Part shown: positions 7,150-17,924 of the stretch, one piece after another
Position numbering within the stretch: position 1 is the stretch's first letter
How the letters are laid out: each line of letters opens with the position of its first letter
Assembly: GCF_005885635.1 (NCBI RefSeq)
Contig: NZ_VATY01000002.1
Coordinates: 868,001-932,000 of the forward strand
Direction of reading: 5' to 3'
Length of the DNA stretch: 64,000 nucleotides
Source of the DNA: Maribacter algarum (ex Zhang et al. 2020)
GTDB lineage: Bacteria > Bacteroidota > Bacteroidia > Flavobacteriales > Flavobacteriaceae
Position numbers and translations under genes: made by a program
Notes under the pieces: model-generated
What the model saw: the letters and a program-made list of their open reading frames with translations, nothing else
Database searches by the model: none
Told to the model about the DNA's origin: nothing

Positions 7150-8241
7150 ATGAAACCATTCACCAAATTAGTTATCCTGCTTTTATCTATTACTTTCTTT
7201 GTTTCCTGCGGGAATGCGGACGATGATGTCAATTTCCGACTGAATACTGGAGACGGACTAGGAAAAGGTAAAGAAGTAGATGAATGCTTGAACTTAGGCG
7301 AGAACGATCTCATACTATCCATTCAAGAACAATTCACTACCCTACCAGGTAAAGTATCCATTCTTTTTAAAGTTTCCGATAGCGATCAAAACCCTATTTC
7401 TGGACTCACGGCCGATCAGTTTACAATTTACGAACAAGGAAGAAACGATGATTGTTTCAATACGATATCCACTTCTGAGTCCTTAGCCAGAATATCACCG
7501 AATTCACAGGTTTTTAGTAATAATACTTTGTTGGTCCTGGATTTAAGTAACAGTGTATTGAGCAGTAGCTTAACTGAGCTTAAAAGCGCCAGCATAAGTT
7601 TTATTGACAATGTGATGCCAGATACCGCTCAGGAATCATTTAAAATGGCTATTTACTGGTTTGATGGGGAAAACGAATTACATCTATTAAATGATTTGAC
7701 GATTTCCAAAGAAGAGTTGACAATGGCAATTAATGGAATAACCGATGATATTAGCAATGACCCTTCAACCGACTTATATGGTGCGGTAATAAAGTCAACA
7801 GATAGAGCAACTGAACTACTAAATGCCAGTACGCAAGGCGACAAAATAGGTGCAGCTTCAGTGGTACTTTTTACCGATGGTACAGATCAGGCATCTCGTT
7901 TTACAAAAGATGCTGCGCAAAAGAAGGTAGATGAAGCAGACCCGAACATTTCCTTCTTCACTATTGGACTAGGCGGTGAAATCGATACCCAGGTACTTAC
8001 CGATATCGGAAAAACTTTTAGTGTATTTGCTGCAAATAAAGAAGAATTGGAAACCACCTTCAACGAAATTTCAACCCGCGTATCCGAACGAGCTAACAGT
8101 TTTTATCTATTTGAATACTGTAGTCCTAAGCGCGATGGTAGTGGTGAAAATAATCTTGCTATTCAAGTCAAGGCAGGTAGTAAGCAAGGCGCTGTACAAA
8201 CGAAATTTGACGCAACAGGATTTACAGGAGGTTGCGAATAG
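7150..8241 (+). CDS. VWA-domain lipoprotein
   Basis: A 363-residue lipoprotein with lipobox FFVSC (acylated Cys20). An immunoglobulin-like segment at about residues 66-100 (LTADQFTIYEQG) precedes a von Willebrand factor A domain at about 125-320. The MIDAS motif is D131-L-S133-N-S135, with FTDGTDQ (Asp243) as the later metal-side loop, so metal-dependent ligand binding should be intact. It sits in the cell envelope facing periplasm or outside; the partner is unknown. It is monocistronic, with a strong terminator just behind it, and divergent from the DUF5916 operon. Confidence 0.85.
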   Translation: MKPFTKLVILLLSITFFVSCGNADDDVNFRLNTGDGLGKGKEVDECLNLGENDLILSIQEQFTTLPGKVSILFKVSDSDQNPISGLTADQFTIYEQGRNDDCFNTISTSESLARISPNSQVFSNNTLLVLDLSNSVLSSSLTELKSASISFIDNVMPDTAQESFKMAIYWFDGENELHLLNDLTISKEELTMAINGITDDISNDPSTDLYGAVIKSTDRATELLNASTQGDKIGAASVVLFTDGTDQASRFTKDAAQKKVDEADPNISFFTIGLGGEIDTQVLTDIGKTFSVFAANKEELETTFNEISTRVSERANSFYLFEYCSPKRDGSGENNLAIQVKAGSKQGAVQTKFDATGFTGGCE

Positions 8242-8610: not shown

Positions 8611-8637
8611 TAAGTATATCGAAATAAGATAATCTCA

Positions 8638-8670
8638 AACAGCGGCTTTTCAATTGGCCGCTGTTTTTTT
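8638..8670 (+). terminator. Rho-independent terminator of 55-residue gene 1
   Basis: A perfect 9-bp stem AACAGCGGC (8638-8646) with GCCGCTGTT (8657-8665) is followed by a T-run. It separates the small membrane protein gene from the barrel gene that starts at 8800, which must have its own promoter. Confidence 0.92.
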
Positions 8671-8799: not shown

Positions 8800-11571
8800 A
8801 TGAAACGACCAATTTTCATTAATAAAGCATTCTTCACCATTCTTTTGTTTTTGACAGGAATACTGTCTCAAGCCCAATCTGGCTTTGTTTCAGGTACTAT
8901 AGAAGATTCCGATGGCGTGCCTATTCCTGGTGTGAATCTAGTGATCAAGGGTCAGACTAAGGGTACTCAAACTGATTTTGATGGTAACTATCGTATCGAA
9001 TGTGAGATCGGAGACGTCATTATCATCAGTTATATTGGGCAACAGACAAGGGAAGTCAAGATTACTGCGGCAATGTTCGGAGAGAAACAACATTCAACTG
9101 CTGTAAAAACCGTTGCTGTAAAAAGCATATTAGATACAACTTACCAAACTTCGGTTCAAAAACACATACCATCTTTTCTTGTAGTTCCTAATATTCAAGA
9201 AAGCTCTAAAACGCATAACGGCAAACAATATCTCAATGTCAATCGATTAAAAGAAATTTCAAAAAAAGGAAATACTGTTAAGTTGACATACTTCAAGCCG
9301 GATATTTTTTTTGAAGTTGGCATTTCCTCACAGTTAGGAATGCAATTTGTACAACAAAGCAACTTACCTGAAATTCAAAAAACATTTGCACAAGGAATTC
9401 CAGTAAACGGAACAAATACATATTTAGGTCCTGAAACCAGCACACAGTTCTCCTATGGACCTAGAATAAACGCCTTAGATTTTGATGGCGTTAGTTATCC
9501 TTTTGATACAAATGGAAGACTGGTTGCAACTGGGGGTGGTACTGGAAAAACCGGGATTATCTACGATAATAATCCTTTTCGAAATGTACTAAAAACCACA
9601 AATAACCTATTCCTTAAAGTATCTACGGACAAGCACTTTTTTGGCCTTGATTACTTGAATAATTCAGGGATGGATATTTATAATGTTGAGCAAAACAATC
9701 TTAATGAGCTGAATCTTAATTACTACAATTCACCTGCGAATGATGGTCTCCAATGGTATATGGATTTAAAACATGTTAAATCAATCGACAATCAACCCAA
9801 CATCAATGGATTTCAAAACAACCTCCTTTTAAATGCTTTGGTTACCCCAATTAGCTTCGATAACGACCAAGGAACCACATTACAAGATGGAAACCAGCGT
9901 AGCTTCAGTACTTCAAGATTTAATAATCCTAAATGGTTACTAAATAGTAATCGAAATCAACTTGAGAATGATTTATGGTTGGCCGTATTACGGAATGAAA
10001 TCTACATTTCAGATAGGGTTAGCATGAATAGCAAATTCGGATACACATTAAGTACAAATAACCAAGAGTTTGGATTGTTTACAAATACGGCAGGTTTCCT
10101 TGATGGCTACACAAGTGATAAAGTAATCACCAAGGACGTTTTCGATTCAACCATTAGTATTGACTGGGATGAATATTTTGGGGGAACTACACTAGAGGTA
10201 TTTTCTTCAATACACTATAACAATGAAAATTTAAAATACCAATTTTCAGAAAGCCATGGATTTGATACAAATACTTTTATCAACCCAATCAATAGCAACA
10301 GCATCAATCGTGATTTGAGTCGAGCAATTTTTCGTTGGGCTACAAGAATCGACTACAGGTTTTTAGACAGAAATGCTAAGTTTTCCTTTGTCAACAACTC
10401 ATTTACTTCAACAAAACAAAACAGTAAATGGTTTTTACCCACCTTTCAACTTGAGTATGAGTTTGGACGTCTTTTTTATTCAGGATTATTAGAAAGGCTT
10501 GACCTTTCATTAGGTTATGGTAATGATATCAATTACCTCAATTTGTTTTATGACAACTTGAGTCATAACAGTTTAAGAGTCAGTCCTGAAGAGAGTTTTG
10601 GCTATACGGCCAACAACGACCTTTTTGCATCAGATGCTGTGAAGTTAGAAGAAAAGAAGAGTTATGAGCTAAACCTTGACCTAGGTATGCGAATAAGCCA
10701 ACAGTACTGGACACTAAACACTACGTATTATTCAAATACTACTAATGGAAGTGTCTTTCCGGTATGGGAAAACAATCAATACCAACTTCAAAACGTAGCG
10801 AATATCAAAAATTCCGGCATTGAATGGTCCCTTGAAGGAAATACCTATAATTACGACGAATTCACGTTTACACCGAAACTAATTTTTTCCTCTTACCGAA
10901 CAAAAGTTCTAGACCTCCTTACCGATGACACTTCAATTCCTATTGCAGGATTTTCTTCTCTTTCAAAAAATCTTATCAAAGGGCAACGCGCAGGAGTGCT
11001 AGTAGGTAGCGTGTATGAAAGGGATGCCCAGAATACTATTATTGTTGATTCCGAAGGATTCCCTGTGATTAGTCCTATACCTGAAATAGTTGGTGACCCC
11101 ACCCCCGATTTCAATTTAGGATTCTCAAGTATTTTCAAATGGAAAGGTTTTCAATTTGATTTTGTGATAGACTACCAGAAAGGTGGAGATATCTGGAACG
11201 GAACGCAAAGTGTTCTAAACTATTTCGGAACCTCTCAACAATCTGCACTAGAGCGGGAATTAGACAACTCCTTCTTTAATAGGGTCCAACGAAATGGGTC
11301 TGAAGGTATTGCCGAAGATGCCATTGTTGATGGGAGTTACGTAAACCTAAAATCAATTCATTTATCCTTTGAAAAAAAACACGAAGATTCAAAACCATTT
11401 TTTCGTCAGCTTAAAATAGGAATATATGGCACCAATCTCTTTATGATTTCAAAGTTTAAAGGGGCCACACCTTATTCAAGCCTATTTGATCAGACATCGA
11501 GTCAGGGTATTCATTTTTTTAACAACCCGACTATCAGCGAGGTGGGAATGAAAATCAATATAAAAATTTAG
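8800..11571 (+). CDS. SusC-like outer-membrane barrel lacking its plug
   Basis: A 923-residue protein with a signal peptide (about 1-26, cleavage near SQAQ). A carboxypeptidase-regulatory-like domain follows (residues 28-90; VSGTIEDSDGVPIPGVNLVI, then GTQTDFDGNYRI), the usual N-terminal extension of SusC/RagA transporters. In normal SusC proteins a Ton box (DEVVV) and a plug of about 120 residues come next. Here there are only about 70 unrelated residues. From about residue 165 the sequence joins directly to typical SusC barrel blocks (GMQFVQQSNLPEIQKTFAQG, FSYGPR, YPFDTNGRLV) and runs to a terminal beta-strand (EVGMKINIKI). The gene is 3 bases before the macroglobulin that carries the missing plug. 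No SusD partner is nearby. I infer a pore whose plug is supplied in trans. Confidence 0.85.
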   Translation: MKRPIFINKAFFTILLFLTGILSQAQSGFVSGTIEDSDGVPIPGVNLVIKGQTKGTQTDFDGNYRIECEIGDVIIISYIGQQTREVKITAAMFGEKQHSTAVKTVAVKSILDTTYQTSVQKHIPSFLVVPNIQESSKTHNGKQYLNVNRLKEISKKGNTVKLTYFKPDIFFEVGISSQLGMQFVQQSNLPEIQKTFAQGIPVNGTNTYLGPETSTQFSYGPRINALDFDGVSYPFDTNGRLVATGGGTGKTGIIYDNNPFRNVLKTTNNLFLKVSTDKHFFGLDYLNNSGMDIYNVEQNNLNELNLNYYNSPANDGLQWYMDLKHVKSIDNQPNINGFQNNLLLNALVTPISFDNDQGTTLQDGNQRSFSTSRFNNPKWLLNSNRNQLENDLWLAVLRNEIYISDRVSMNSKFGYTLSTNNQEFGLFTNTAGFLDGYTSDKVITKDVFDSTISIDWDEYFGGTTLEVFSSIHYNNENLKYQFSESHGFDTNTFINPINSNSINRDLSRAIFRWATRIDYRFLDRNAKFSFVNNSFTSTKQNSKWFLPTFQLEYEFGRLFYSGLLERLDLSLGYGNDINYLNLFYDNLSHNSLRVSPEESFGYTANNDLFASDAVKLEEKKSYELNLDLGMRISQQYWTLNTTYYSNTTNGSVFPVWENNQYQLQNVANIKNSGIEWSLEGNTYNYDEFTFTPKLIFSSYRTKVLDLLTDDTSIPIAGFSSLSKNLIKGQRAGVLVGSVYERDAQNTIIVDSEGFPVISPIPEIVGDPTPDFNLGFSSIFKWKGFQFDFVIDYQKGGDIWNGTQSVLNYFGTSQQSALERELDNSFFNRVQRNGSEGIAEDAIVDGSYVNLKSIHLSFEKKHEDSKPFFRQLKIGIYGTNLFMISKFKGATPYSSLFDQTSSQGIHFFNNPTISEVGMKINIKI

Positions 11572-11574
11572 AGC

Positions 11575-14500
11575 ATGGACACTACACTTAAAACCATTCG
11601 TAAAATAGCAACATTTTTCTTTTTAGGATTACTATTGACTTCATTCAATCGTGATGAACCTAAACTAGATTTGGTTGAGAAAATCTATACCCATACGGAT
11701 AGACCCTTATACTTTCCTGGTGAGACCATTTGGTTTAAGTCATATGTGATGAATAGATCAAATACCATTTCTGCAATTAGTGAGATGATGTATGCCGATT
11801 TAATTTCTCCCAAGGGCTCGGTTGTCAAAACGCTAAGATTACCTGTTCAGAATGGGTATTCATATGGTGATTTTTTCATCAATAAAGAATGGATAGGTGG
11901 TGTATATACACTTAAAATTTATACAAATTGGATGCGTAACTATGGGGAAGAGCTACTCTTCACCAAAAAAATTACGGTTCAAAAAGTAGTACAGCCCAAG
12001 CTTCTGATGAAATTAAAATTCGTAAAGGAAGGTTACGGAAGGTCGTCGGAAGTCACCGCTGATTTTGAAGTCAAAGATTTAAAAAATAATCCCTTGTCAA
12101 ATACTGAGGTTAATCTGGCCGTGATGATAGATGGAAAAAGCTATTTAAACAAAAAACTGCGTACAGATGCTGAAGGCAAGTTAAAACCAAAATTCAAACT
12201 ACCTGATGACCTTGAAACAACAGATGTACTCCTAAATATGCTCATACCACACAAAGGTTCAACGGAATCTATTTCCAGAAATGTTCCTGTGTTTTTAGAA
12301 AATTTAGATGTTCAGTTCTTTCCTGAAAGTGGAAAAATTATTGCCGGAACATCCAATACAATTGCCTTTAAAGCAATCAATGAATATGGTAAACCTGCAG
12401 ATATTTCAGGGGAAGTAGTAGATAATGAAGGAAATCATATTCTGGATTTTGATAGCTATCATGATGGAATGGGCGGGTTTGAATTCGAACCTATTGCAGG
12501 AAAAAAGTACTTTGCCCAAATAACGAAACCTTATGTTTCCGATCGACAATTAAACTTACCAGAGGTATTCGAAAAAGGTGTTCGTTTTTCACTTAAGGAG
12601 GAAAATAAGACTGTAGCGCTATCCCTTTTTTCAAATACAAAAGAAGATTTGCATTTGAAGATATCCAATAGCACTGGTGAAATTTTTAGTCAGCCAATAG
12701 CATCCGAAGATAAAAACATTAAAATAGCTACGGATGAATTCCTTATGGGCATTACGAAGTTTACTATTCTTGGCAAAAAAAAGAGGGTTCTGGCAGAGCG
12801 CCTGATATTCTTAAAACAGGATGAACAACTAAAAATTGATATCCAAATTGAAAAGGAAATTTTCAATACTAGGGAAAAAGTTTCGGTTAAAATACATACT
12901 AAAGATAAGACAGGAACACCCGTTTCCTCCAACATATCGGTTGCTGTTGCGGATAACAAATTACTGTCTTTTGCCGATGACAAACAGGATCATATTTTAT
13001 CATATCTCTTAATGTCATCGGAACTCAAAGGTGAAATTCACAAACCTGTTTTTTACTTTGATAAAGAAGAGTCAAAAGGAAAAAAAGCCCTTGATTATGT
13101 TATGCTGACGCATGGTTGGAGAGATTACATTCAAGAAAAAGAAGTCTCACTTTATAATGCAGCCTATCAGCCTGAGCAATTGGCTATTCAAAATGGTGTG
13201 GTGGTCGACCACAAAGAAAATCCCCGAAAAGCACAATTGTTATTATTCGATAACAATGATAATAAAGTACTTGATTTTGATACCAATGATAAAGGGGAAT
13301 TCTCTTTCAAAATGTCTAAGGGAAGTCGTTTCACCTTAGTCGCATATACCGACGATAATGCCCCTTTACGCATTCGCCCAAAAAGAAGGGCAGATGGTTT
13401 TTCAAGCAGACCTCAAAACAAGAAGGGAATTCCAAACCCAGATACGCCCTTTGATTTTTATGGGGTCGTAAAACCAAATCAGAAACCTATAAACAAGGAA
13501 GCTAAAGCCAGTCTTGTTTTAACGGAAGATACTGCCCAACTAGATGAAGTTGTTGTAACGGCTATGGGAATATCTAGAAAAAGAGATGCAACAGGAAGTG
13601 TTACATATATACAGTCTGAGGAGTTGCAAACAAATGAAAGTATAGCTCAGACACTGCAGGGCAAAGTAGCCGGGGTACAAATCACAAGCTCTTCAGGTAT
13701 ATCTGGTGCCGCTACCAAAATAAACATACGGGGCCATGCATCAGTTTCAGGAAACAATCAACCGTTATTCGTTGTTGATGGCATTCCGATGGATTTTAAG
13801 GGACAAATGACAATAAACCCGGATCAAGTCAATTCAATATCGGTTTTGAAAGACCTTGCTGCTACTACACTTTATGGTTCAGCTGGAAGTAACGGGGTAA
13901 TTCTAATCTCTACAAAAAAAGCGAATTATAACTCCTTTAGTAAGAAAAAATTAAACAATAAAAAGTACAACAACTATGTCTCATATGATTTCTATAACTA
14001 CAACGGAAATACTTTAGATCGTCAAGCCAAATTTTATGTGCCACTGTATGAGGGGGAAAAACTTCCAGAGGAGCGTACCGATTTTAGGTCAACAATTTAT
14101 TGGAATCCCGTAGTACAAACGAATGCAAAAGGAGAGGCCGAATTTGAATTTTATAATTCGGATGCGATAACCTCTTTTAAAATTAGTGCAGAAGGTGTTG
14201 GACACAACGGTCTTTTAGGGCGACAAGAAAAGGACTATAGTACCAAGAAGTTATTGAACCTTGATTTTAAAACTCCTAGCTACATGACACTAAATGATAT
14301 TGTGGTATTGCCAATTACCATCGTAAATGAATCGGACGAAACGCTGTTTTCGGAGCTGCAATTGGATTTGCCGGAAAATCTACAACTGGCCGAAACTATT
14401 GATAAAAATATTACCATTGCCGCACACTCCACTGTGATACGAAATGTAAAGGTTCTTGTAAAGAAAAAGGGGGATGACCTAAAAATAAGGGCTACCATAA

Positions 14501-16140
14501 AATCTGATAAGTATCAGGATTTGGTACACAAGAAAGTTTCTATCCTCAGTCCCTATTTTCCAATGCAAACGGCTATTTCAGGTACGAAAAGTCAATCATT
14601 CGAATTTGAAGTGAATAATGCCGTTCCCAATTCATTGTCTGCTGAATTTACGCTGTACACTGATATAACAGGAGATGTCATGAATGGTATTGCGTCAATG
14701 ATGCGCCAACCCTATGGCTGTTTTGAACAAGTATCTTCTGCGACGTATCCGAATATCTTAATACTCAAATACTTGCAAGAAAAAGGAAAAATCAGACCGA
14801 GAATTGAACGAAGGGCTAAAAAATACATTGCCGATGGTTATCGACGAATGGCCGCCTATGAAACTAAGGAAAATGGTTTTGAATGGTACGGAAGAACACC
14901 CCCGCATGAAGCGCTTTCAGCTTATGGTCTGATGCAGTTTAAAGAAATGGAAGGAGTTTATGACGGTGTGGACAAGAAAATGATTGATAGAACCATTAAC
15001 TGGTTATTGAGCCGCAGGGATAATAAGGGAGGATTTCTTCAAAACAAAGGAAAATATGGATTCTCAAGCGGTCCGAAAGAGGTAAACAACGCATATATCG
15101 TTTATGCGCTCACTGAAACCAATACAAAAGTTGATTTAGAAAAAGAATACCGAACTGCCTATTTTCATGCGCTGGATAGCTTAGATACTTACAAGTTGGC
15201 CTTAACGGCCCTGTCAAGCCATAATCTGAAAAAAGTATCGGATTATGAAAACCTGATGTCCTATGTGAAATTAAACATTAGAAATCATGGTTTTGCAAAT
15301 ATTCCGGTGGAGCATACAATTACAAGGTCTTACGGTGCTGCTAAAAATATAGAGACAACTGCTTACGTATTATTGGCATTGTTGAAAGATTTCGAATCAA
15401 ATGAACTCTTAATTAAAGAAGGCATTGAACATTTATTTAGTAGAAGGTCTTATGGGCGATTTGGTTCCACGCAATCTACCGCAATGGCTCTTAAAGCATT
15501 GATAGCCTATGCCAAGATTCAAAAATCAAGGATTATTGGCAAGGATGATACTATTGAAATACTGTTAAATGGAAAGATAATAAAGGAAAAACTTCAATTG
15601 AACAACTCGGGTAATGTCAAAATCGATAGCCTTGAAAAGTATATAAAGGATGGGAAACAAACTATTAGTATACAGTTCAAAAACCCAAAAGTCACCTTTC
15701 CGTACGACATGAATGTGAGGTGGGATAGCGACCTACCGGATACCTCTGAGAATTGCAAAGTTGATATGCAAACAGAAATCACACCCGGTAATTATAAAGT
15801 CGCTGACATTGTGCGTATGAAAGTTTCCGTCTCAAACAAGAGAGAACATGGCCTGCCGATGACCACAGCTATTGTTGGAATTCCTTCTGGAACATCGGTT
15901 CAACCATGGCAGTTAAAGGAAATCCTTGAGCAAAAGAAAGTTGCCTTCTATGAAATATTCGATAACTATCTGGTCTTCTATTGGCGTGAAATGGGCCCTG
16001 CGGAAACAAAGGTCATCAACTTGGACCTCAAAGCTGAGATAGCAGGTAACTACGTGGCACCTGCAAGTTCAGTTTATTTATACTATGGTGATGAAGAGAA
16101 GTCATGGATAAAAGGTAATCAATTGACGATATCTGACTAG
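11575..16140 (+). CDS. Alpha-2-macroglobulin with inserted SusC-type Ton box and plug
   Basis: A 1521-residue exported protein with an N-terminal hydrophobic segment (about 8-22). Macroglobulin MG domains begin at about residue 36 (THTDRPLYFPGETIWFKSY). Residues about 656-782 are a complete SusC-family Ton box and plug: LDEVVVTAMG, TLQGKVAGVQI, INIRGHASVSGNNQPLFVVD and TLYGSAGSNGVILI. The A2M domain follows (DFRSTIYWNP at about 836-845). Next is the thioester domain with PYGCFEQ (Cys1049 and Gln1052), as in bacterial macroglobulins that carry CLEQ. C-terminal MG-like domains close the protein. Bacterial macroglobulins trap proteases. A plug inside one is odd, and the gene before it encodes a SusC barrel without plug. 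The two probably form one TonB-linked complex in the outer membrane. Confidence 0.9.
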   Translation: MDTTLKTIRKIATFFFLGLLLTSFNRDEPKLDLVEKIYTHTDRPLYFPGETIWFKSYVMNRSNTISAISEMMYADLISPKGSVVKTLRLPVQNGYSYGDFFINKEWIGGVYTLKIYTNWMRNYGEELLFTKKITVQKVVQPKLLMKLKFVKEGYGRSSEVTADFEVKDLKNNPLSNTEVNLAVMIDGKSYLNKKLRTDAEGKLKPKFKLPDDLETTDVLLNMLIPHKGSTESISRNVPVFLENLDVQFFPESGKIIAGTSNTIAFKAINEYGKPADISGEVVDNEGNHILDFDSYHDGMGGFEFEPIAGKKYFAQITKPYVSDRQLNLPEVFEKGVRFSLKEENKTVALSLFSNTKEDLHLKISNSTGEIFSQPIASEDKNIKIATDEFLMGITKFTILGKKKRVLAERLIFLKQDEQLKIDIQIEKEIFNTREKVSVKIHTKDKTGTPVSSNISVAVADNKLLSFADDKQDHILSYLLMSSELKGEIHKPVFYFDKEESKGKKALDYVMLTHGWRDYIQEKEVSLYNAAYQPEQLAIQNGVVVDHKENPRKAQLLLFDNNDNKVLDFDTNDKGEFSFKMSKGSRFTLVAYTDDNAPLRIRPKRRADGFSSRPQNKKGIPNPDTPFDFYGVVKPNQKPINKEAKASLVLTEDTAQLDEVVVTAMGISRKRDATGSVTYIQSEELQTNESIAQTLQGKVAGVQITSSSGISGAATKINIRGHASVSGNNQPLFVVDGIPMDFKGQMTINPDQVNSISVLKDLAATTLYGSAGSNGVILISTKKANYNSFSKKKLNNKKYNNYVSYDFYNYNGNTLDRQAKFYVPLYEGEKLPEERTDFRSTIYWNPVVQTNAKGEAEFEFYNSDAITSFKISAEGVGHNGLLGRQEKDYSTKKLLNLDFKTPSYMTLNDIVVLPITIVNESDETLFSELQLDLPENLQLAETIDKNITIAAHSTVIRNVKVLVKKKGDDLKIRATIKSDKYQDLVHKKVSILSPYFPMQTAISGTKSQSFEFEVNNAVPNSLSAEFTLYTDITGDVMNGIASMMRQPYGCFEQVSSATYPNILILKYLQEKGKIRPRIERRAKKYIADGYRRMAAYETKENGFEWYGRTPPHEALSAYGLMQFKEMEGVYDGVDKKMIDRTINWLLSRRDNKGGFLQNKGKYGFSSGPKEVNNAYIVYALTETNTKVDLEKEYRTAYFHALDSLDTYKLALTALSSHNLKKVSDYENLMSYVKLNIRNHGFANIPVEHTITRSYGAAKNIETTAYVLLALLKDFESNELLIKEGIEHLFSRRSYGRFGSTQSTAMALKALIAYAKIQKSRIIGKDDTIEILLNGKIIKEKLQLNNSGNVKIDSLEKYIKDGKQTISIQFKNPKVTFPYDMNVRWDSDLPDTSENCKVDMQTEITPGNYKVADIVRMKVSVSNKREHGLPMTTAIVGIPSGTSVQPWQLKEILEQKKVAFYEIFDNYLVFYWREMGPAETKVINLDLKAEIAGNYVAPASSVYLYYGDEEKSWIKGNQLTISD

Positions 16141-16426: not shown

Positions 16427-16432
16427 TACTGA

Positions 16433-16462
16433 GCCCCAATAGTAATATTGGGGCTTCTTTTT
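16433..16462 (+). terminator. Rho-independent terminator of 55-residue gene 2
   Basis: A perfect 9-bp stem GCCCCAATA (16433-16441) with TATTGGGGC (16446-16454) has a 4-base loop and is followed by a T-rich tract. It closes the plus-strand cluster that begins at 8800 and abuts the stop of the convergent M14 carboxypeptidase gene. Confidence 0.9.
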
Positions 16463-17924
16463 ATCTATAAATCATGGAATTCTTGAAATTTCCCTCACCG
16501 TTTTTGAGGTCAATTAGAAAACCATTAATTATTGCATATTCGTAAAGCCCATTTTTTTCAAGTAGGAAAGTGGGGTTTATACCTACCTCCAAGTTGAGTT
16601 CTGGGAGTTCGTATCCTGGGGAAATCAAATGCATGGGCATTTTGAAATCCAGCCAATCTGAAGGAATATTTTTTGAACGCGCATAGGCATAGCCTTTTTG
16701 CAATAATTCCAGAGCCTCATTGGCTTTAAGTTCAGAAGGCATTTTAAGAATTTCGGGAGCAGCTTTGCCTGCTCGTATAGTATATCCGCTAGCATCGAAA
16801 GTTTCATAGCCGTAATACGTGGATAAATCACCTTGGTCGATAACTCGACTACTGTACCAAAAATCAGTACTTTCTTCGATTGGAACTTCCAATCGGTTCA
16901 TTCCGATATCAAGTATATAAGGCTTCCCGTTAATTTCGTAAGTAGCGTTGGTAATCTTTAAATCAAACAATTTTCGGTCGTTTTCAGGAATCTTCTCATA
17001 ATCCTCTAACGGAATATCCGCATAATTCCCTTTGGCAATTGTATAAATCGCTGAGAGGATGGATACATAGTTTAACTTTCGAATCTCTTGTTTTTCGATA
17101 TCATTGGCATATCCCCCGGATTCAATCAGAATAGTGCTTGTCCCCCATTTTTGAATATTATCGCCAAAAGCCCTAGGCTCAAAGTCATCATTATAGCGAC
17201 CTACTTGTCCTGGCGCATATTTCTGAATAATATTGTTCATAAAAACAATCACCTTCATAGCATTTCCGCGCTTCTCATTGATATCCTTTTCATAATTATA
17301 GGCAGGAGCCAGATAAGATATTGTAGCCGGTTTTTCTGTGCGTTCTGCATTGTAGTAGGTGCTTTGATCGTGCAGATTGAATCCAAAATCAGCATTGAGA
17401 CTATCACGGACACGTTTTAAAGTTTGACTTTCTGGGGACTGTAAACGCAAGGCATCTCGATTGATATCTACTCCTAAAACATTCCTTCGCTGAAATCGCT
17501 CCGCCCCATCAGGATTCAACATTGGGAGAAAATGTAAAGTTAAATTATCTAATATTTCCTTTTTTTCATCCTTGAAATCGTCGCTTGATAGGAAATTGAA
17601 AATATCAAAAATGGCCTGCGTGGCTGTAGGTTCATTACCGTGCATTTGCGACCACAAATAAACATTGGTCTTCCCCCGCCCTATGCTCACTAGGGACAAA
17701 TCACGCCCTTCGATGGACTTTCCAACAACCTTTACAGTAAAAAACGGATTCGCTCTAAACTTTGCCAATAAAGGCTGTAGCTGGTGATGCTTGATTCTTC
17801 GTTTATCTAGACTCGGCTCTTTGTAGTTTTCGTAAGTCTCAAAGAGTTGTTCAGTGATATCGCTTTCTTGGGAAAAAGAGACAGCAGCTACTAGGAGCAT
17901 GAGTGTAAAAAATTTAATTTTCAT
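16461..17924 (-). CDS. M14 family zinc carboxypeptidase, exported
   Basis: A 487-residue protein with a signal peptide (residues 1-18). The M14 zinc ligands are His95 and Glu98 in QMHGNEPT and His185 in NLHDQST. The substrate-binding stretch NPDGAERFQRRN is at about 137-148, and the catalytic glutamate is Glu267 in ILIESGGY. The full active site implies a working periplasmic or surface carboxypeptidase that removes C-terminal residues from peptides, or possibly from cell-wall peptides. A C-terminal region of about 180 residues follows the catalytic domain. It stands alone, convergent with the macroglobulin cluster. Confidence 0.9.
   Translation of the reverse strand: MKIKFFTLMLLVAAVSFSQESDITEQLFETYENYKEPSLDKRRIKHHQLQPLLAKFRANPFFTVKVVGKSIEGRDLSLVSIGRGKTNVYLWSQMHGNEPTATQAIFDIFNFLSSDDFKDEKKEILDNLTLHFLPMLNPDGAERFQRRNVLGVDINRDALRLQSPESQTLKRVRDSLNADFGFNLHDQSTYYNAERTEKPATISYLAPAYNYEKDINEKRGNAMKVIVFMNNIIQKYAPGQVGRYNDDFEPRAFGDNIQKWGTSTILIESGGYANDIEKQEIRKLNYVSILSAIYTIAKGNYADIPLEDYEKIPENDRKLFDLKITNATYEINGKPYILDIGMNRLEVPIEESTDFWYSSRVIDQGDLSTYYGYETFDASGYTIRAGKAAPEILKMPSELKANEALELLQKGYAYARSKNIPSDWLDFKMPMHLISPGYELPELNLEVGINPTFLLEKNGLYEYAIINGFLIDLKNGEGNFKNSMIYR

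Follow-up and report, generated by a model that had tools for sequence, protein, structure and literature searches.

Two adjacent genes in the window, that is, the whole 64,000-nucleotide stretch of Maribacter algarum DNA that was analysed, very probably encode a single TonB-dependent transporter split between two chains: a SusC-type outer-membrane barrel and a periplasmic macroglobulin that would plug this barrel in trans. The preliminary description had proposed that the macroglobulin closes the barrel in this way and that TonB pulls on it. The first part of this proposal is strongly supported, since loss of the plug from one protein is matched by its gain in the other, the two genes co-occur exactly, the model of the barrel protein is free of a plug, and the Ton box is conserved. 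The pull by TonB stands as a prediction.

The open reading frames at 8800-11571 and 11575-16140 both lie on the + strand, 3 bases apart, and their coordinates, sizes, strand and spacing agreed with those initially given. The features of the pair are collected in Table 1. The terminator-like stem-loops found on both sides of the pair would fit a two-gene unit, for which they give a weak indication.

Table 1. Features of the barrel-macroglobulin gene pair, and the locus of a second, long alpha-2-macroglobulin (A2M) family.
Feature	Position	Strand	Residues	Basis or remark
Terminator-like stem-loop 5' of the pair	8637..8666	+		Pattern scan only
Plugless SusC-family outer-membrane barrel, 923 aa	8800..11571	+		Profile matches, model, Foldseek
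Carboxypeptidase-regulatory-like (CPD) domain of the barrel protein	8878..9078	+	27-93	Pfam PF13715, E 2e-12; model strands
Linker of the barrel protein, in the place of the Ton box and plug of SusCs	9082..9246	+	95-149	pLDDT about 36-63
22-strand beta-barrel	9307..11565	+	170-922	Strands counted in the model; Foldseek
A2M-family protein with TonB plug, 1521 aa	11575..16140	+		Signal peptide, no lipobox
N-terminal macroglobulin (MG) domains	11665..13374	+	31-600	Pfam MG2 (36-119), model
Ton box LDEVVV	13540..13557	+	656-661	By pattern in 78/79 homologues
Ton box and TonB plug domain, in the bait-region position	13540..13920	+	656-782	Pfam Plug, E 6e-16
A2M (MG7) domain	14092..14355	+	840-927	Pfam PF00207, E 2e-9
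Thioester-containing domain (TED)	14650..15510	+	1026-1312	Pfam PF07678, E 3e-30
Predicted thioester motif CFEQ	14719..14730	+	1049-1052	Invariant in 49 homologues
Terminator-like stem-loop 3' of the pair	16431..16456	+		Pattern scan only
Long A2M family, locus L292	G000:C1:344613-350558			

The 923-residue protein carries a signal peptide. Pfam recognised a CarboxypepD_reg domain in it and gave no match to Plug. The match to the NCBIfam SusC profile TIGR04056 started only at profile position 280 of 981 and covered residues 258-922, and its score of 146.5 bits was below the cut-off of 368, as expected for a barrel protein without a plug. The AlphaFold2 model, built from an alignment of 50 sequences, had a mean pLDDT of 87.7 and consisted of the CPD domain, a mostly disordered linker and 22 strands beginning at residue 170. 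The top Foldseek match of this model was the SusC of the BT2261-2264 complex (5fq7, TM 0.68), and comparison of the plugless barrel family with ordinary SusCs by hhalign gave a probability of 100% over 902 aligned columns. Thus, the SusC profile, the model, Foldseek and hhalign all point to a 22-strand barrel of the SusC type.

No plug was found in the same chain as this barrel by Pfam, in the model or by hhalign, and no Ton box motif was present in the barrel protein of the window. None of 50 barrel homologues matched Pfam Plug even at an E value of 0.1. When the barrel family was compared with the plug by hhalign, the probability was 0.5% for the N-terminal region and 7% for the whole protein, while ordinary SusC controls gave 100%. 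A Ton-box-like pattern was detected in 3 of 79 barrels, that of the window not being among them, as against 78 of 79 macroglobulins; the Ton box has therefore been retained in essentially all macroglobulins and is missing from nearly all barrels. The initial reading of the 923-residue protein as a SusC-like protein without Ton box and plug was borne out by these results, and neither the model nor the profile comparison revealed the cryptic plug that would have contradicted it. The barrels of the family vary at their N-termini and in length: no CPD domain was found on those of the Chitinophaga homologues, and at five loci, mostly from Dokdonia (L114, L117, L120, L129 and L133), the plugless barrels were 780-817 aa long, about 140 residues below the rest.

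The 1521-residue protein has the domains of an A2M (MG domains, A2M and TED) and a CxEQ-type motif, CFEQ, which is predicted to form a thioester. It also contains a complete plug module of the SusC type. The Ton box LDEVVVTA begins at residue 656, the Plug profile PF07715 matched residues 669-775 (E 6e-16), a SusC/RagA signature was found at residues 752-781, and the closest solved plug was that of the SusC BT_2264 (E 6e-27). Both the plug and the invariant thioester motif were thus confirmed where they had first been described. The plug follows the N-terminal MG domains and precedes MG7, in the position of the bait region of A2Ms. In a model of residues 1-1190, the N-terminal domains and MG7 had pLDDT values mostly of 80-94, in contrast to about 20-58 for residues 613-795, and the bait-region slot before MG7 was filled by a low-confidence linker and the plug. 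Modelled in this way, in the absence of the barrel, the plug could not be placed with confidence on the macroglobulin that carries it.

In known transporters, both ends of the TonB plug are on the periplasmic side. The N-termini of the macroglobulins, judged by eye, look like plain signal peptides without a lipobox. For these two reasons, the macroglobulin is most probably periplasmic, and the earlier suggestion that a tethered trap might be fired to the cell surface is unlikely.

The distribution of the two genes was studied in several sets of genomes. Among 149 genomes of the window's family, a full-length plug-bearing macroglobulin was found in 9, one of which, that of G079, was broken by a contig end. 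An independent search of these genomes for the barrel family yielded plugless barrels in the same 9; its weaker matches lay in reading frames that encode 1015-1083 residues, a length typical of ordinary SusCs. Among 395 genomes of the phylum, both genes were present in the same 4, and all next-best barrels examined had kept their own plug. These two samples are without the bias of the GTDB-wide scan, in which the nearest 80 of 512 relatives were taken and which is thus weighted towards near relatives. The set used for studying adjacency comprised the GTDB-wide relatives, the window and seven loci from the family search, three records being seen twice. It contained 80 intact plug-carrying macroglobulin genes, three of which start at a contig end, leaving 77 that could be checked. 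A plugless barrel gene was located directly upstream on the same strand in all 77, at a distance of -152 to +50 bases (mostly 2-6). Such adjacent pairs were found in Flavobacteriaceae, Cytophagales, Bacteroidales and Chitinophagales, and a Saprospiraceae record (L134) had the same gene order with a frameshifted macroglobulin. No plugless barrel was found next to any of 11 proteins that have no clear plug, namely three related macroglobulins (L144, L152, L202) and eight canonical A2Ms from other genomes. Therefore, barrel, plug and Ton box are held jointly by the two chains and are inherited together, and the survey proposed in the preliminary description came out in favour of its reading. Chance or an assembly error was rejected as the origin of the pair because the same pair was found in dozens of genomes.

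The origin of the two parts was addressed by phylogenetic analysis. The barrels formed a single clade (FastTree support 1.0), and the macroglobulin plugs were scattered among SusC plugs, with well-supported branches forcing five or more switches between the split and the ordinary type of plug. A single clade of macroglobulin plugs was rejected (AU test, p 0.024). At L083, where the TED is 68% identical to that of the window, the plug grouped with that of an ordinary SusC (L245) of the window's own genome; placing the L083 plug beside the window's plug by constraint was not rejected (p 0.39). These trees are suggestive, and only suggestive, of repeated replacement of the macroglobulin plug by plugs of ordinary SusCs, the domain being short. 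Such replacement would make sense if the domain has to work as a plug, and the macroglobulin plugs seem to stay under plug-like constraint. Descent of the plug and the barrel from the same SusC was considered and found unsupported, since the barrels form one clade and the plugs are scattered; the plug and barrel lineages seem to be different. The correlation between plug and barrel scores is biased by the choice of sequences. In a mutual-information analysis of 73 non-redundant pairs, couplings between plug and barrel did not exceed the barrel-macroglobulin background, and in this analysis even adjacent barrel strands, the positive control, were hardly recovered, so that it lacks power.

On the trans-plugging reading, the SusC-type barrel would sit in the outer membrane, its lumen unoccupied, and the macroglobulin would be exported to the periplasm. 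The plug would enter the barrel from the periplasmic side and close it in trans. TonB-ExbBD would then pull on the macroglobulin by the Ton box that precedes the plug, and the plug would move; TonB proteins are encoded in the genome of the window. Further steps are more speculative. The other ideas of the preliminary description, that protease trapping or the sensing of an attack might be coupled to opening of the pore, are conjectural. In human A2M, the cleaved bait region retracts from a channel, which leads to a conformational change (PMC9352918). Because the plug occupies the bait-region position, a pull on it might act as the counterpart of bait cleavage, so that the macroglobulin would shift and its thioester would become accessible to a polypeptide coming in through the pore. 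The pair might thus be a force-activated thioester trap driven by TonB, in which withdrawal of the plug opens the pore and at the same time arms the macroglobulin for covalent binding of the incoming polypeptide. This extension is tentative and rather doubtful, and that the pull of TonB arms the thioester is something we only infer.

No third conserved gene was found beside the pair across the loci, and neighbours common to several loci look like lineage synteny. Two of them, a VWA lipoprotein gene upstream (7150-8241 in the window) and an M14 carboxypeptidase gene downstream (16461-17924), each adjoin the pair in nine loci, apparently in the clade of the window only. Directly upstream of the pair in a genome outside the family (G352, L203:2891-5206), a 771-aa protein is encoded that combines a plug with a VWA domain and also carries a T9SS sorting tail.

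Another way to read the pair is as an export system, in which the macroglobulin would hold a periplasmic client and the pull of TonB on the plug would release this client outwards through the barrel. The trans-plug step is common to this explanation and the preferred one, and the direction of transport differs. The SusCs characterised so far are importers, and a conserved gene for a client is lacking beside the pair, both of which speak against export. That no SusD lid gene was recognised beside the pair would fit it, and there is a precedent in Myxococcus, in which the TonB-dependent transporter Oar is needed for secretion of PopC (PMC6434023). On balance, export is improbable.

Even less probable is that the macroglobulin plug is a mere module for docking to TonB, as plugs of other proteins without a barrel in Bacteroidota may be, and stays out of the adjacent barrel, for which its own loops or a different protein would then provide the closure. 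Plug domains were also found in DUF4139, TPR, M56/TonB_C and VWA proteins of Bacteroidota and in a second A2M family, and for these no plugless partner was recognised, although one plug-bearing VWA protein, that of L203, adjoins the barrel-macroglobulin pair itself. The second A2M family, of about 2000-2200 aa, is present in 79 of 148 family genomes and is often encoded beside a Mur-ligase-like gene. In some Flavobacteriaceae genomes (L281-L291, L293) the corresponding slot is occupied by a plug module, which is missing in other genomes, including that of the window; next to the plug-bearing members, no SusC barrel without a plug was recognised. Considering the long A2M family and the DUF4139, TPR, M56 and VWA proteins, a plug by itself is no proof of a barrel partner. 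However, among the plug-bearing proteins examined, an adjacent barrel lacking a plug was found only in the family of the window, and there always, and a 22-strand SusC barrel without a plug needs a stopper. Plugs occurring apart from a barrel are not uncommon in Bacteroidota; what is special here is the adjacent barrel without a plug of its own.

A diverged plug folded by residues 95-165 of the barrel protein would make the macroglobulin plug redundant, and a stretch of 70 residues with no assigned role does lie between CPD domain and barrel. Such a plug is scarcely credible and largely refuted, since this stretch is short, mostly disordered and without a Ton box, and neither the hhalign probability, which was no higher than 7% when SusC controls gave 100%, nor any Pfam Plug match among the 50 homologues supports it.

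The trans-plugged pair was compared with known systems. With SusC/RagA transporters (BT_2264, 5fq6/5fq7; RagA, 6sli) it shares the 22-strand fold, the N-terminal CPD domain and the SusC-type Ton box and plug. It differs from them in having plug and barrel on two chains, in the fusion of the plug into a macroglobulin, and in the absence of a recognised adjoining SusD gene; none was recognised among the neighbours in the window, and no neighbour beyond the pair was conserved across loci. The MG domains, A2M/MG7, TED and CxEQ motif are shared with E. coli ECAM (5a42), Salmonella A2M (4u48) and animal CD109/A2M, whereas the macroglobulin of the window has a plug and Ton box at the expected bait region and is paired with an outer-membrane barrel. 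For E. coli FhuA, reconstitution from plug and barrel expressed separately has been reported; a plug could thus serve a barrel in trans, but that split was artificial, whereas the one described here occurs naturally, with the plug built into a different, large protein. The T9SS translocon SprA has a separate Plug protein. In the outer membrane of Bacteroidota, BamP inserts in the pore of BamA (PMC12611786). In both systems a barrel is filled by a separate protein, as would be the case here, but their barrels and plugs are unrelated to those of the pair, and no macroglobulin is known in them.

No account of a barrel-macroglobulin system was found in the open-access literature searched, and the pair appears to be a gated pore of two parts, of a kind not described so far. 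To our knowledge, all structurally known transporters of this class have the plug in the same chain as the barrel. The extent to which the plug is displaced by the pull of TonB has long been debated. If the plug of a natural transporter belongs to a separate protein, its withdrawal would be directly visible, since the partner could either leave or stay. The system would also link TonB energy with a complement-like thioester protein; such a link was not found in the papers searched, and we know of none. In addition, it would suggest functions for the plug proteins without barrels that recur in Bacteroidota.

The occurrence of plugs in other macroglobulin-like proteins, which had been mentioned in the preliminary description, was evident from the long A2M family and from a group of short MG-plug proteins. 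The latter (L050-L062, L066 and L068-L072) are widespread, about 815-950 aa long (some about 1230-1340), and contain MG domains together with, in most cases, a Ton box and a plug that is only partial. They lack a TED, are sometimes encoded in tandem, and no plugless barrel was recognised nearby; they were therefore rejected as members of the macroglobulin family. In two plug-free relatives of the macroglobulin (L140 and L145), the slot contained a CPD domain and a motif resembling a Ton box, along with a TonB C-terminal-like domain that was assigned by Pfam in L140 and by eye in L145. A weak match to a different plug (E 5e-4) was obtained in the slot of L144.

An ordinary SusC in two reading frames (L266) was rejected as a split receptor because the break is within the barrel and it looks frameshifted. 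A DUF4140/DUF4139 protein (L063) has a CPD domain and a TonB plug inserted according to Pfam, and L265 resembles it by CPD and plug matches only. In the genome of the window, four tandem proteins of 580-593 aa with CPD-like N-termini are encoded at L064:8219-15754; plug matches were obtained in three of them, and both of those examined by Pfam gave weak TPR matches. The same genome encodes, at L067:9473-12571, an M56 peptidase of the BlaR1 type that contains two stretches of TonB_C and, at its C-terminus, a partial plug.
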